Program-made: the position numbers and the translations under genes | Virus record (IMG/VR): IMGVR_UViG_3300037488_001841 | Span: 1-64,000 of that record | From: a virus | Length of the DNA stretch: 64,000 bases | Direction: 5' to 3' (one strand) | Notes under the pieces: generated by a model | Database searches by the model: none | The model's input: only the letters and a program-made list of their open reading frames with translations | What the model was told of the DNA's origin: nothing | Shown: positions 46,621-64,000 of the stretch, piece after piece | How the letters are laid out: each line of letters opens with the position of its first letter | Position numbering within the stretch: position 1 is the stretch's first letter

Positions 46621-48681
46621 ATGGCGATAATATATAAGGTAGAAAATATAAACCCGGTTATATACAATAACTTCACATTTGTTGATGGTAATGGGGTTAG
46701 TAAATCAATGGATTTATTACCAAATGTATCATATTACATCAATGGTAATAGTGTCATTTCGCCCGCGTTATTTATTACGGTACTTAATTTAGGTAAAGAA
46801 ACTATTAGATACTGTTTCCAAAGTTGTTGTAATAATGACATTATTGATTTTGATGGGAGTAATCAATTCCCATTTAGTACTTACCAAGTTGGCGATACCA
46901 TATATTTTGATCAAGCAATCACATCTTCAAATCCTAATAACTATAAAACAGGTTGTTATGAGTTAATAAGTTTCGGACCCACTAATACACACTCATGTTC
47001 AATAGCCGGATCTGAAAATGTTAGTGTTGTTTCTTTTGAAAGTAACCCATATGATAGTTGTAATAACTGTATTGTTGATCACAGTTGTTGTGTGAGTTAT
47101 ATAGTTACAAACCAATCATCAACGAATGTTAAAACATCAATTGAATTTACTCCTTGTTGTGATGAAACTAAAACATCTCCATATTTCATACCATTCCAAA
47201 CAGGTATATTAGTATGTAGTTCAACAGGTATAAAAGTTTTGGGTGGTGACGTTCAAGTTATAAATAATGGGAATTGTCCTGATTGTCCTGTTATCACAAC
47301 AACAACAACGGGACCTGTAGTAACAACCACAACAACATTTGCTCCTCCAATACCACCAATTGAGCCTCTTAATGAATGTTCTGTAATAACTATTTTCCCT
47401 CTTGGGGTTGAATGTTTTACAGTTGACCCAACAACAAGTGGATCTTTCGATGGTGCGGTCACTTTAGGTATAACGGGAGGGACACCACCATATGAGGTTG
47501 TTTGGGAAAATGGATCATTATCTCAATCGTTAAGTAATATTGGAGTTGGGGAATACAATTCAATTGTTACAGATTATTATGGTGATTTTACTGCATATAC
47601 CACTTGTGTATTAACCGCTGAAACACCGGTTACAACAACTACAACAACTCAAGAACCATTACCATCTTATGAAGATATATGTATAACAATTATTAGAGGT
47701 AACAAACTATTTTCTTACGCTGAATATTACCAATTTGATTTTAATAATTATATCGGAGATTATCCTACTTGGACTAATACAATAGATGGGTTAGATATTG
47801 TGTGGGGCGAAACTAACAATCAATGGGAGGTTTCTGGATGGACTATAGGTCAAATTATTAATACTAATCCGGCAATACCACCACTAAATGGGTGGGATTC
47901 TTTAGGGCCTACATTACCTGATAGAGTATTATCAATAACTGCGGTTTCAGGACTATGTCAATTATTAAGTATGCCTAACTTAACGATACGTGTTAATCAA
48001 CCTGAGTGTGGTTGTGACGGAAGTTTAATCTTAACTCCTTTTGGAGGTACTCCACCTTACACTTTTTCTATTGATGGTGGTACGACTTATGCTGCAACAA
48101 CAATATATAATGATTTATGTCAAGGAACTTATATTGTTTATGTGAAAGATTCTTCAGGATTTACATATAGTGAAACTGTTACTTTATCGGCACCTACATC
48201 ATCGGTTAATTATATTTTAACTATGGCATATTTGGGTGGTAATACATTTGGTGTTAGTATATCTCCTTCATTATCTATTGGGACCACAGTTACTTTTGAT
48301 GTTATACATACTAACACATTTATTGTTGGACCTTTACAGTCAAGTGCAACTTATAATAATACGGTTACATTAAACGTTAATGGGGTTCCGGTTTCTTATA
48401 CTCCACCACCTGTACTAACCCAACTTTCACCGGTACCTCAACAATTCCCTTGTCAAGGATCTTTCCAATACACAACAACAAAACAGTTTACGTGGGTTGG
48501 TTTAAGTATGACGTTTGGTACAATAATAAATGGTTCGTTTACTAATACAATATCGCCTGTTTTACCAACACCACAATGTTTTGTTGCAACTACATCATAT
48601 TATATTTATATAAATAATGTAAGAATAAATAATGATTGTGATACGATAAGAGTTGTTAACCCTAAACCACCAAAAATTTAA
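46621..48681 (+). CDS. Fibre/adhesin with Cys-pair modules and SprB-like repeats
   Basis: The 686-residue protein has N-terminal Cys-pair modules (YCFQSCCNND ... CYELISF ... DSCNNCIVDHSCCVSYIVTN) and a Thr-rich linker near residue 225 (TTTTTGPVVTTTTT). Two SprB-like units follow (VTLGITGGTPPYEVVWENG; ECGCDGSLILTPFGGTPPYT ending VYVKDSSG), with beta-rich C-terminal domains. The CVSYIVTNQS region matches CVQYLLTNNS in the - strand adhesin at 51957, so the modules are shared. It probably is a second fibre or fibre-tip protein and a target for the neighbouring glycosyltransferase. Confidence 0.65.
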   Translation: MAIIYKVENINPVIYNNFTFVDGNGVSKSMDLLPNVSYYINGNSVISPALFITVLNLGKETIRYCFQSCCNNDIIDFDGSNQFPFSTYQVGDTIYFDQAITSSNPNNYKTGCYELISFGPTNTHSCSIAGSENVSVVSFESNPYDSCNNCIVDHSCCVSYIVTNQSSTNVKTSIEFTPCCDETKTSPYFIPFQTGILVCSSTGIKVLGGDVQVINNGNCPDCPVITTTTTGPVVTTTTTFAPPIPPIEPLNECSVITIFPLGVECFTVDPTTSGSFDGAVTLGITGGTPPYEVVWENGSLSQSLSNIGVGEYNSIVTDYYGDFTAYTTCVLTAETPVTTTTTTQEPLPSYEDICITIIRGNKLFSYAEYYQFDFNNYIGDYPTWTNTIDGLDIVWGETNNQWEVSGWTIGQIINTNPAIPPLNGWDSLGPTLPDRVLSITAVSGLCQLLSMPNLTIRVNQPECGCDGSLILTPFGGTPPYTFSIDGGTTYAATTIYNDLCQGTYIVYVKDSSGFTYSETVTLSAPTSSVNYILTMAYLGGNTFGVSISPSLSIGTTVTFDVIHTNTFIVGPLQSSATYNNTVTLNVNGVPVSYTPPPVLTQLSPVPQQFPCQGSFQYTTTKQFTWVGLSMTFGTIINGSFTNTISPVLPTPQCFVATTSYYIYINNVRINNDCDTIRVVNPKPPKI

Positions 48682-60824: not shown

Positions 60825-61436
60825 ATGTCTTTAGTAAAAATTTCTAATAAGTATTATAAATTAGATAAAATATCAAATCCTTGGATTGGATCTAAATATG
60901 AATATATTAGAGATGCGGGTACCGACATAACGGGTAAAATTGGTGAGGAATTTATTTATGAATTATTCTTAAAAATATTTGATGGTTGGGAAATATTTTG
61001 GGATAAAGATAAAAATACCGGACAAAAAGATGGTGTTTACGATATTAAATTAATTAATAGTAAATATAATATAACTTTAAGGATTGAGGTAAAAACTGCA
61101 ACCCAAGGAAAGGACGGTGGGTTCCAACATGAAAAAATATTAGGTAATGAATTTTGTGATAAATTATTATTTTTAGATATTAACCCAAATGATTTCTACA
61201 TAACAATATTAGATGTTAATGAAATAGACTTTAATTGTAATGAAAAAACTATTTTAGGTAGAAAACTTCATAAACGATCTAATAGTGATCAAACTAAATT
61301 AGATTTTGGAGATAAAACAATTAAAAATGGTTTAAAGTTGGGGAAAACTATTTATATTACAGATGATGAGAATCTAAAACAAATAAAAAATTTAAAAGGA
61401 TTCTTAATAAAAAGTCTAACTGAAAAATATGGATAA
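60825..61436 (+). CDS. Restriction-endonuclease-like PD-(D/E)XK nuclease
   Basis: The 203-residue protein has E41/E42 (KIGEEFIYELF), D73 (GVYDIKL) and E88-V-K90 (LRIEVKTA), a plausible PD-(D/E)XK site, and Q101-H102 shortly after. This layout is typical of type II restriction enzymes. It overlaps the following adenine methyltransferase gene by eight bases. Together they look like a restriction-modification pair. The gene is AT-richer than its neighbours and lies between gp46 and the sigma gene, so it was probably acquired. It could instead act as a counter-defence or homing-type nuclease. Confidence 0.62.
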   Translation: MSLVKISNKYYKLDKISNPWIGSKYEYIRDAGTDITGKIGEEFIYELFLKIFDGWEIFWDKDKNTGQKDGVYDIKLINSKYNITLRIEVKTATQGKDGGFQHEKILGNEFCDKLLFLDINPNDFYITILDVNEIDFNCNEKTILGRKLHKRSNSDQTKLDFGDKTIKNGLKLGKTIYITDDENLKQIKNLKGFLIKSLTEKYG

Positions 61437-62460
61437 TATATATGAATTTTTTATTGAAATATTAAGTAAATATTCGATAGATCATATAAAAAAAGAATTG
61501 GATGTTAATAAAAATACGATTGAAAGGTGGAAAAAATTAAAAAAAATTCCTAAACAATATTATTTTGATCTTTGTAGGATTGATAATATCCCTATAAATT
61601 ATTCTGAATTTTCGGAAAAAGACAAAGATCAATTTTATACTAGTGTTGAAGATGCTAAAAAATGTATATTAATATCAAAAACAATTGTTGAAAAATTTGG
61701 AGATAATTTTGATAATTATAATTTTATAGAGCCATCCGCTGGAAATGGTAGTTTTTTTAATTTATTACCCCAAGATAAAGTGGTTGGGATAGACATTGAG
61801 CCAAAGTTGGATCAAATTATAGAAGGTGATTTCTTAAAATGGTACCCTGAAACTAATAATAATTTAACAATTGGTAATCCTCCATTTGGGTTAAGAGGTA
61901 ATTTGGCTTTGAAATTTATAAATCGAGCGGCTAAATTCTCAGAGTATGTGTGTTTTATACTACCTCAATTATTTGATAGTAATGGTAAAGGATCTTGTAA
62001 AAAAAGAGTTAGGGGTTTAAATTTAATACATACTGAAAATATTGGATCAACATATTTTTTACCGAATGGAGATGAAGTAATAGTTAATGCTATATTCCAA
62101 ATATGGTCTAAAAGACATAAAATTGATGAAAATGAGGTTGACATATCTGAATATGTGAAAATATTTTCATTATCTGATGGGGGTACTCCAGGGTCAACAA
62201 GAAATAAAGATATGTTAGATATGTGTGATTTTTATTTGCCGTCAACTTGTTTTGGGGTAGATAAAGTTAAAATTTATAATGACTTTGAATCTTTACCTCA
62301 AAGAAGAGGTTACGGTCTTAAAGTGGTTGATGGAAATGAAAGAATTGCGAAAATAATAACAGAAATAGAATGGAGTAACGTGGCATTCACCTCAACAAAT
62401 GGAGCTTATAATTTACGCTTTGATTTAATAGAATGGGCAATCTTTAAAAAAATAGTATAA
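61429..62460 (+). CDS. Adenine-N6 DNA methyltransferase with N-terminal HTH
   Basis: The 343-residue protein starts with an HTH-like region (about 14-52: DHIKKELDVNKNTIERWKK), then KDQFYTSVEDAKKCI. SAM motif I is FIEPSAGNGSFF (99-110), and catalytic motif IV is NPPFG (150-154), giving N6-adenine specificity. The HTH could bind its own promoter, as in RM systems that regulate through the methyltransferase, or a target site. It overlaps the upstream nuclease gene by eight bases. Its stop codon lies inside a 21-bp tandem repeat. Confidence 0.75.
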   Translation: MDNIYEFFIEILSKYSIDHIKKELDVNKNTIERWKKLKKIPKQYYFDLCRIDNIPINYSEFSEKDKDQFYTSVEDAKKCILISKTIVEKFGDNFDNYNFIEPSAGNGSFFNLLPQDKVVGIDIEPKLDQIIEGDFLKWYPETNNNLTIGNPPFGLRGNLALKFINRAAKFSEYVCFILPQLFDSNGKGSCKKRVRGLNLIHTENIGSTYFLPNGDEVIVNAIFQIWSKRHKIDENEVDISEYVKIFSLSDGGTPGSTRNKDMLDMCDFYLPSTCFGVDKVKIYNDFESLPQRRGYGLKVVDGNERIAKIITEIEWSNVAFTSTNGAYNLRFDLIEWAIFKKIV

Positions 62461-62494
62461 ATACCCAAAAAAATAGTATAAATACCCAAAAAAA
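62446..62494. repeat. 21-bp tandem repeat containing TATAAATA
   Basis: Two perfect 21-bp units (62446-62466 and 62467-62487) and a third partial A-run. Each has seven A's, then TAGTATAAATACCC. The first unit includes the methyltransferase stop codon. TATAAATA lies at 62456-62463 and 62477-62484; on the - strand it reads TATTTATA, the motif seen upstream of virion genes. Possible operator, promoter pair or duplication scar. Confidence 0.75.
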
Positions 62495-62517
62495 TTAGTA
62501 CTTATTCTATTTTTTGA

Positions 62518-63044: not shown

Positions 63045-63845
63045 ATGAAGGACAAAAACTTAGGAATACCTATTAACCAAGACGAAGTTTACCACTACCT
63101 TAAAGATATCAGAAAAATTAAAGTAATGACTCCCGACAGAGAACGTGAGTTAGCCGTTAAAATGAAATCAAATGAGATTTCAGACAAAGAGAGAAAACAA
63201 ATTGAGGAAGAACTTCTTATAGGTAACTTAAGATTTGTCATTACTGTGGCGAAGCAGTATCAAAACCAAGGTTTAGATTTACAAGATCTAATTGCTGAGG
63301 GTAATTATGGTTTGATGAAAGCAATCAAAAACTTTGATTGGGGGAAGGACCTTAGATTTATATCTTATGCGGTGTGGTGGGTTAAACAATCAATCATTCA
63401 ATCGTTAAATGATAACGCAAGAACAATACGATTACCGGTGAATGTTGTTCAAGATCTTCATAGAGCAAAGAAAGAGTTGGAACAGACAGGTAAGAAGTTG
63501 GAAGACAAATTTTCCACATTACCATCAATCATTGATTTGGACATGAGAATTAATGATGAGGGAGATACTCTTATTGATATGATTGCGAATCAAGATGCTG
63601 AGGCTCCTGATGCTTCTTTTCATACAAAAGATATTCTAAAAGAAAAAATGATGACCTTGTTGGATGTTTTAGATGATCGTGAGAAGTCAATCATTGGGGA
63701 TTACTTTGGGTTAACAGGAACTCCAAGAACTTTAGAGGACATTGGTAGTGATTTTGGCCTCACAAAAGAAAGAGTACGTCAGATTAAAGAAAAGGCGTTA
63801 AGACGATTAAGAAACGATAGTTCGGAACTATTTGATTATTTGTAA
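63045..63845 (+). CDS. Sigma70-family RNA polymerase sigma factor
   Basis: The 266-residue protein has region 2 intact: LLIGNLRFVITVAKQYQNQG, DLIAEGNYGLMKAI and RFISYAVWWVKQSI. It continues into a reduced region 3 and region 4 with EDIGSDFGLTKERVRQIKEK. This resembles primary sigma factors of Bacteroidota rather than T4 gp55. It would redirect host RNA polymerase to phage promoters, possibly the TATTTATA motifs. Follows an unknown gene by three bases; a structured RNA begins right after its stop. Confidence 0.9.
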   Translation: MKDKNLGIPINQDEVYHYLKDIRKIKVMTPDRERELAVKMKSNEISDKERKQIEEELLIGNLRFVITVAKQYQNQGLDLQDLIAEGNYGLMKAIKNFDWGKDLRFISYAVWWVKQSIIQSLNDNARTIRLPVNVVQDLHRAKKELEQTGKKLEDKFSTLPSIIDLDMRINDEGDTLIDMIANQDAEAPDASFHTKDILKEKMMTLLDVLDDREKSIIGDYFGLTGTPRTLEDIGSDFGLTKERVRQIKEKALRRLRNDSSELFDYL

Positions 63846-63850
63846 GAAAA

Positions 63851-63921
63851 GGGTTGAACCGAGATTACCCTTATAACTCGGCGGAATGGGACACGAGGTT
63901 CCCTGGGTGAAATTCCTCAAC
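63851..63921 (+). ncRNA. Structured RNA, predicted three-way junction
   Basis: GTTGA (63853-57) pairs with TCAAC (63917-21). Inside, CCGAG (63859-63) pairs with CTCGG (63877-81), and GGAAT (63883-87) with ATTCC (63912-16), the latter containing a GGGA/TCCC hairpin. This closes a compact three-way junction with almost no linker. I do not recognise the RNA family. It could be a riboswitch-like leader for a gene beyond the window or a phage small RNA. Confidence 0.6.
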
Positions 63922-63940
63922 TATATCTATATGGTATAGT
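63920..63940 (+). other. Alternative hairpin downstream of the junction
   Basis: ACTATA (63920-63925) pairs with TATAGT (63935-63940). Its first two bases are shared with the closing stem of the junction, so the two folds could compete. Confidence 0.45.
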
Positions 63941-63950
63941 GAAACTACAT

Positions 63951-63980
63951 CCCCTCACTGGTACCGGTGGGGGGTTTTTT
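63951..63980 (+). terminator. Strong rho-independent terminator
   Basis: CCCCTCAC (63951-63958) pairs with GTGGGGGG (63967-63974), one T-G pair, followed by six T. It ends the sigma transcript or the structured RNA. Confidence 0.85.
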
Positions 63981-64000
63981 ATACCCATATAACTGTTTGC

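Follow-up and report, generated by a model that had tools for sequence, protein, structure and literature searches.

Compensatory changes support a pseudoknot-containing structured RNA beside the sigma factor gene of an uncultured phage

The locus and the architecture of the element

The window analysed here, a 64,000-nt stretch of DNA, comprises bases 1–64,000 of an IMG/VR virus record totalling 75,554 bases, and encodes, among other proteins, a DnaB-like helicase, a ribonucleotide reductase and a baseplate wedge protein. The element described in this study lies close to its 3′ end, where the upstream neighbours are an SbcC-like gene, a putative restriction-modification pair and a gene for a sigma-70-family RNA polymerase sigma factor of 266 aa (63045–63845, plus strand; Pfam Sigma70_r2 3.5e-16, r4 8.6e-16; phrog_351 1.5e-51). 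The restriction-modification-like cassette occupies 60825–62460, between the SbcC-like gene and sigma, with one of its two proteins weakly matching NOV_C and the other resembling a DNA methyltransferase, and AAAAAAATAGTATAAATACCC occurs in tandem at 62450–62510, immediately ahead of the gene preceding sigma. On the far side of the element, the last bases of the window (63979–64000, minus strand) hold the 3′ end of a convergent gene of 149 aa, here called X, which faces the element tail-to-tail and lies mostly beyond the window (63979–64428 of the record, equivalent to L002:1979–2428, minus strand); X or an X-like gene is similarly placed in relatives. At 46621–48681 the window encodes a phage protein with SprB repeats (Pfam), a motif known from surface adhesins of gliding Bacteroidetes. 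This protein, together with the Bacteroidetes-type promoters found upstream of related copies, suggests that the host belongs to the Bacteroidetes.

The element, counted with its terminator, extends over 63849–63980 on the plus strand and begins three bases past the sigma stop codon (63843–63845). Its 5′ part is formed by two crossing helices: the strand AAGGG (63849–63853) pairs with CCCTT (63868–63872) as P1, while CCGAG (63859–63863) pairs with CTCGG (63877–63881) as P2, and the crossing of P1 by P2 yields an H-type pseudoknot. Three hairpins follow on the same strand: P3, GGGAC ACGAG GTTCCC (63888–63903); P4, GGG ... CCT (63905–63917); and P5, ACTATATC TATAT GGTATAGT (63920–63940). The P3 pentaloop reads ACGAN in 38 of the 54 distinct copies that we aligned and CTGAN in the other 16, and the loop of P4 carries a T-loop-like UGNRA pentamer (63908–63912), found in 49 of the 54, which corresponds to the T-loop consensus. 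An intrinsic terminator (63951–63980), composed of a 10-bp stem at 63951–63974 and a T run, closes the element. Both P5, seen in the initial annotation as a hairpin following a junction, and the strong terminator that it proposed are confirmed.

Compensatory changes and the conserved fold

Relatives of the sigma protein are encoded in 340 of 379 candidate stretches, from which the best 80 loci were retained. A search of IMG/VR with the core of the element found 90 stretches carrying it, corresponding to 119 instances when overlapping fetches are included and to 61 distinct sequences, 54 of which were long enough to be aligned. Most of the 5′ core was fixed by the search pattern, so that its invariance is in part a matter of selection, the copies having been found via the core. 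A looser core pattern again returned 90 IMG/VR stretches, with one new locus (L399) among the matches listed, and a P1-variant pattern that also admitted the normal form added one locus (L161) to those of the core search. Patterns for P2 variants retrieved no relatives: with the stems left free and the middle of P2 required not to be G, 102 viral matches were obtained, none with more than six of the eight stem positions paired and no evident relative among the best 15 that were inspected, and with both sides of the P2 middle pair altered there were four matches, none of them a relative. At blastn sensitivity, none of 50,697 named phage records contains a match to the window element. Two divergent forms discussed below, those of L205 and L122, matched named phages over 13–18% of the query, near its 3′ end, and these matches were taken as chance.

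Folded on its own, the window sequence is somewhat more stable than chance (z −2.04; 6 of 200 shuffles equal it). Across the 54 distinct copies, a model consisting of P1 crossed by P2, P3, P4 and P5 gives 92.9% paired cells, a count that includes a few diverged rows (L083, L091, L099 and L153) in which MAFFT misplaced the P3 gap. The covariation score of this model is 0.274, which none of 500 shuffles attains (0.146 ± 0.008), and structures slid along the alignment score at most 0.100; a measure of ‘further pair types’ was no better than shuffles (26 versus 25.4). Pairs with double changes number five in P3, four in P5, one in P4 and one, an outer pair, in P1. At columns 3–25 of P1, the pair is AU in 29 copies, UA in 16 and other in 9, and at columns 60–74 of P4 it is AU in 24, GU in 19, GC in 8 and other in 3. 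We counted the minimum number of Watson–Crick switches for 46 copies on a sigma-gene tree built with FastTree, which may depart from the history of the RNA, such that recombination between RNA and sigma would inflate the counts: there are 7 switches at P1 columns 3–25, 10, 7 and 7 at three P3 pairs, which switch as a block, 7 in P4, and 8 each at P5 columns 79–96 and 80–95. A covariance model built from the alignment, the window sequence included, matches 63849–63950 with 117.6 bits.

The two helices of the pseudoknot contribute to this evidence in different ways. The three G–C pairs of P1 are invariant in the 54 copies, and P2, identical in 54 of 54 partly owing to the search pattern, permits no covariation; because P2 never varies, support for the pseudoknot comes from a single covarying pair in P1 together with invariant complementarity. 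Taken together, the compensatory changes support a fold in which an H-type pseudoknot is followed by the hairpins P3, P4 and P5 and then by an intrinsic terminator. That the helices vary while the loops and the core stay fixed would suit an RNA that binds a protein or a ligand, rather than an antisense RNA.

These results bear on the structure first proposed for the locus, in which a closing stem and two arms met in a three-way junction. A compact structured element directly after the sigma gene had been predicted, with compensatory changes in relatives named beforehand as its test; such changes are present, with covariation above all shuffles and slides, and the claim of a structured RNA survives. 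The junction does not. For the first 78 bases of the window element taken alone, it is the most favourable fold, with a closing stem GGTTGA/TCAACT and arms CCGAG/CTCGG and GGAAT/ATTCC. Across the 54 rows, however, double changes are absent from the closing stem (GTTGA/TCAAY), in which individual pairs are broken in 11, 4 and 2 rows, and equally from the second arm, in which one pair forms in just 9 rows. The competition postulated between the following hairpin and the closing stem is tied to that fold, and is peculiar to the window since the conserved structure is the pseudoknot with three hairpins.

The absence of a known family, also asserted at the outset, holds: neither the whole window nor seven related loci have a match in Rfam 15 at gathering score, and permissive Rfam scans produced weak matches below that score. 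ARAGORN found no tRNA or tmRNA in the window or in 11 related loci, and no paper on this RNA family, its 20-base core included, was found in the literature collection searched. As far as Rfam and these searches show, the element is a new family of phage structured RNA, of a kind that is already known.

Genomic contexts, promoters and terminators

We examined 67 non-identical contexts, including the bacterial locus L205. A sigma gene lies within 150 nt upstream in 30 of them, X is found downstream in 20 by similarity, and a terminator was detected in 60. For promoters, we scanned the last 60 nt upstream for TT(T)G-N17–23-TAnnTTTG, a pattern modelled on the Bacteroidetes consensus (TTTG ... TAnnTTTG) and read from sequence alone. 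Such a promoter precedes 12 of the 39 copies that do not abut sigma and have at least 60 nt upstream, where shuffles predict 0.17; the 12 amount to fewer independent cases because several are close relatives, and the other 27 lack a canonical promoter in those 60 nt. None was seen in the 27 copies that abut sigma, a group that includes one copy too short for the scan.

In the window, where the element abuts the sigma stop codon, it must form the 3′-terminal part of the sigma transcript. The whole element could then be a 3′-UTR module of the sigma mRNA, in which a nuclease block and a terminator set transcript stability and the RNA has no function of its own, and the direct abutment to the sigma stop codon in 28 of the 80 sigma relatives, as read from their flanks, agrees with this. 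However, the element also occurs away from sigma with a promoter of its own, the 3 kb around the divergent phage copies and around the copy in a metagenome-assembled genome (MAG) yielded no sigma gene, some of these flanks being shorter, and a simple block would presumably need neither an invariant pseudoknot nor invariant loops. We therefore consider this explanation unlikely.

The initial annotation had likened the arrangement to a riboswitch or to a stable phage small RNA. In a riboswitch or attenuator, the conserved part would be an aptamer fold and the terminator would decide read-through into the next gene, which in about half of the contexts is M, a gene for a membrane protein; an invariant pseudoknot followed by a terminator does resemble small riboswitches, and M lies co-directionally within 400 nt downstream in 34 of the 67 contexts. 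Yet in 25 of the 67, counting diverged X-like genes recognised by ORF reading, that place is taken by X or an X-like gene in convergent orientation, so that a consistent co-directional downstream gene is missing. The genes 3′ of the 12 promoter-bearing copies are X or X-like and convergent in nine cases and a co-directional M in one, with two cut off, of which one (L090, record G481) proved to have X, again convergent, in a whole-record search. Because most promoter-bearing copies precede a convergent gene, a riboswitch is less likely. In addition, when terminator arms were permuted among copies, pairing with the upstream RNA was weaker for a copy's own arms (−6.25 kcal/mol) than for arms dealt out from other copies (−6.52 ± 0.11 kcal/mol), and 99.2% of permutations were at least as strong, which is slightly the reverse of antiterminator coupling. 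We accordingly regard a riboswitch as quite unlikely, and the promoters, the terminators, the convergent genes and the lack of antiterminator pairing favour an RNA gene. One phage group, in particular, points to an RNA gene because its copies have their own host-type promoter and terminator. The alternative of a stable phage small RNA thus fits a sequence that is conserved, covaries, has its own terminator and, in some relatives, has its own promoter.

Divergent copies extend the family. The phage copies L083, L091, L099, L122 and L125 still fit the covariance model at 69–83 bits, and the Bacteroidetes MAG locus L205 fits it at 71 bits. An extended 3′ domain, with GCTCAGACAAA and adjacent bases in common, is present in L099, L122, L125, L153 and L205, and a longer version of this motif occurs in just 5 viral stretches. 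A loose-pattern scan of genome contigs gave at least 119 stretches; the model was applied to 77 of these, among which L205 alone was real and gave a strong match, and 42, mostly actinobacterial by title, lay outside this check. One of 395 genomes of the phylum carries the element by the exact pattern, and one by the covariance model, a search that scored 10 candidates per genome among the rows listed and may miss diverged copies; the same genome, G001, was the one found by both, as it was among 36 genomes of the order and among 395 genomes of the class at up to three mismatches. By ORF reading, the genes of the L205 contig look chromosomal (a histidine kinase, a response regulator and small lipoproteins), although a contig from a MAG may be misbinned.

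Neighbours and the proposed role of the RNA

X was followed in a sample of 50 of the 63 records first listed, some of which may be fragments. The RNA is present in 30 of the 50 and X in 21; X accompanies 17 of the 30 RNA-positive and 4 of the 20 RNA-negative records (Fisher p 0.018, uncorrected for kinship), and wherever the two occur together, in 17 of 17 cases, X is convergent with the RNA and no more than 150 nt away from it. By these counts, X is a frequent neighbour and a non-obligatory partner, and no protein partner of the RNA was found. The X family is very diverse, with a conserved N-terminal motif, LRESIRKxLLxEK, that is reminiscent of the capsid-targeting peptides known from T4-like phages. 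A weak match to DUF4258 (E 0.0011) was obtained for 1 of 15 members, and a guess based on motifs is that X might be a toxin-like RNase. Against PDB sequences nothing convincing was found for X (best E 0.036, a peptidylprolyl isomerase), and a fold search of the PDB gave nothing significant for its AF2 model, the quality of which is moderate (pLDDT 72).

This neighbourhood raises the idea that the RNA is an antitoxin or inhibitor of X. The constant tail-to-tail placement and the DUF4258 match are in its favour, as is the retention of an X-like gene in divergent phage records where sigma and M were not found nearby; X is nevertheless missing from 13 of the 30 RNA-positive records and present without the RNA in four, and its model offers no fold to lean on, so that we judge inhibition of X highly improbable. 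Type III RNA antitoxins (ToxI, CptI and TenpI) are described as pseudoknot repeats upstream of a co-directional toxin gene (PMC5086642). The element resembles them as a pseudoknot RNA followed by an intrinsic terminator, and differs from that description in having one pseudoknot per copy, three more hairpins and a convergent X. A related possibility is an anti-defence decoy that mimics a type III antitoxin or the ligand of another RNA-sensing defence: the element is phage-borne, contains an H-type pseudoknot and sits in a variable hotspot, and phage mimics of these pseudoknot antitoxins are known (PMC5086642). It lacks tandem repeats and carries three additional hairpins, however, and we find a decoy very unlikely.

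The interval between sigma and M contains three more conserved non-coding stretches with similar promoter-like sequences, which we call RNA2, RNA3 and RNA4. They gave 18, 14 and 7 matches, respectively, which are not independent genomes because the loci overlap. RNA2 (L062:5997–6139, plus strand; also L051, L086, L089, L098, L121, L135 and others) spans ∼143 nt between sigma and M, is conserved and non-coding, and has a Bacteroidetes-type promoter-like sequence and a terminator; AAAATCCTC is common to RNA2 and to P4 of many copies of the pseudoknot RNA. RNA3 (L047:5651–5790, plus strand; also L051, L034, L079, L025 and L012) is ∼140 nt long with 73–100% identity over its 14 matches, and its consensus fold has five double-change pairs in six sequences. 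RNA4 (L031:5984–6051, plus strand; also L014, L149 and L055) is short, with two GTCAGAAYAC motifs and a terminator-like end. At one locus, RNA3, RNA2 and the pseudoknot RNA follow one another within 1 kb past sigma (L051:5844–6844, plus strand), and a promoter-like start with a long non-coding stretch after sigma was seen at L065:5841–6018 (plus strand), at that locus only. Rfam has no matches in four loci carrying these candidates.

Conservation, structure, position and the promoter and terminator signals, all legible in the sequences, lead us to favour, as the somewhat more probable reading, a trans-acting phage structured RNA that would be bound by protein. It would be a non-coding RNA of ∼130 nt, of which there is also a longer form of ∼190–210 nt. 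In one phage group, it would be transcribed as an RNA gene from its own host-type promoter to its own terminator; in the window and its nearest relatives, it would form the last part of the sigma transcript, after which its fold would probably release or protect it. The invariant 5′ pseudoknot, the P3 loop (ACGAN or CTGAN) and the P4 T-loop could together present a rigid binding surface, with P5 and the terminator serving as a replaceable 3′ part. Most likely, the RNA would be part of a ribonucleoprotein and would act in trans during infection through its binding to a protein of the host or the phage. A bolder extension, which we regard as doubtful, is that the sigma-to-M interval is an island of several unlisted stand-alone structured RNAs (the pseudoknot RNA, RNA2, RNA3 and RNA4) using host-type promoters, that the trans target of the pseudoknot RNA is a host machine (RNA polymerase, the ribosome or an RNA-sensing defence), and that the long form in the MAG is a donor or a captured copy.

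T4 encodes two stable RNAs, C and D, which are small, have no known function and lie within its tRNA cluster; the element would be a small phage RNA of comparable size. GOLLD and ROOL are presented as structured phage non-coding RNAs of unknown function (PMC12286853). Like GOLLD as described there, the element joins a conserved and a less conserved part, the conserved one here being the 5′ end; unlike GOLLD and ROOL, which are several times larger and often lie near tRNA islands, it is ∼130 nt long and sigma-adjacent, with no tRNA in the window and no Rfam match. The manA and wcaG motifs of T4-like cyanophages are described as structured RNAs that likely regulate adjacent genes (PMC2864571), and the element shares with them its nature as a structured phage RNA, whereas the window has no match to any family in Rfam.

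Phage non-coding RNAs of unknown function, with GOLLD, ROOL and T4 RNAs C and D as examples, are a standing puzzle. Being small and strongly conserved, equipped in some members with clear promoters and terminators, and present in many uncultured phages, the RNA described here should be readily synthesised, probed and used as bait. The sigma-adjacent interval appears to hold further RNA families absent from Rfam, and if the RNA does bind a host protein, it would offer a handle on how Bacteroidetes phages manipulate their hosts.
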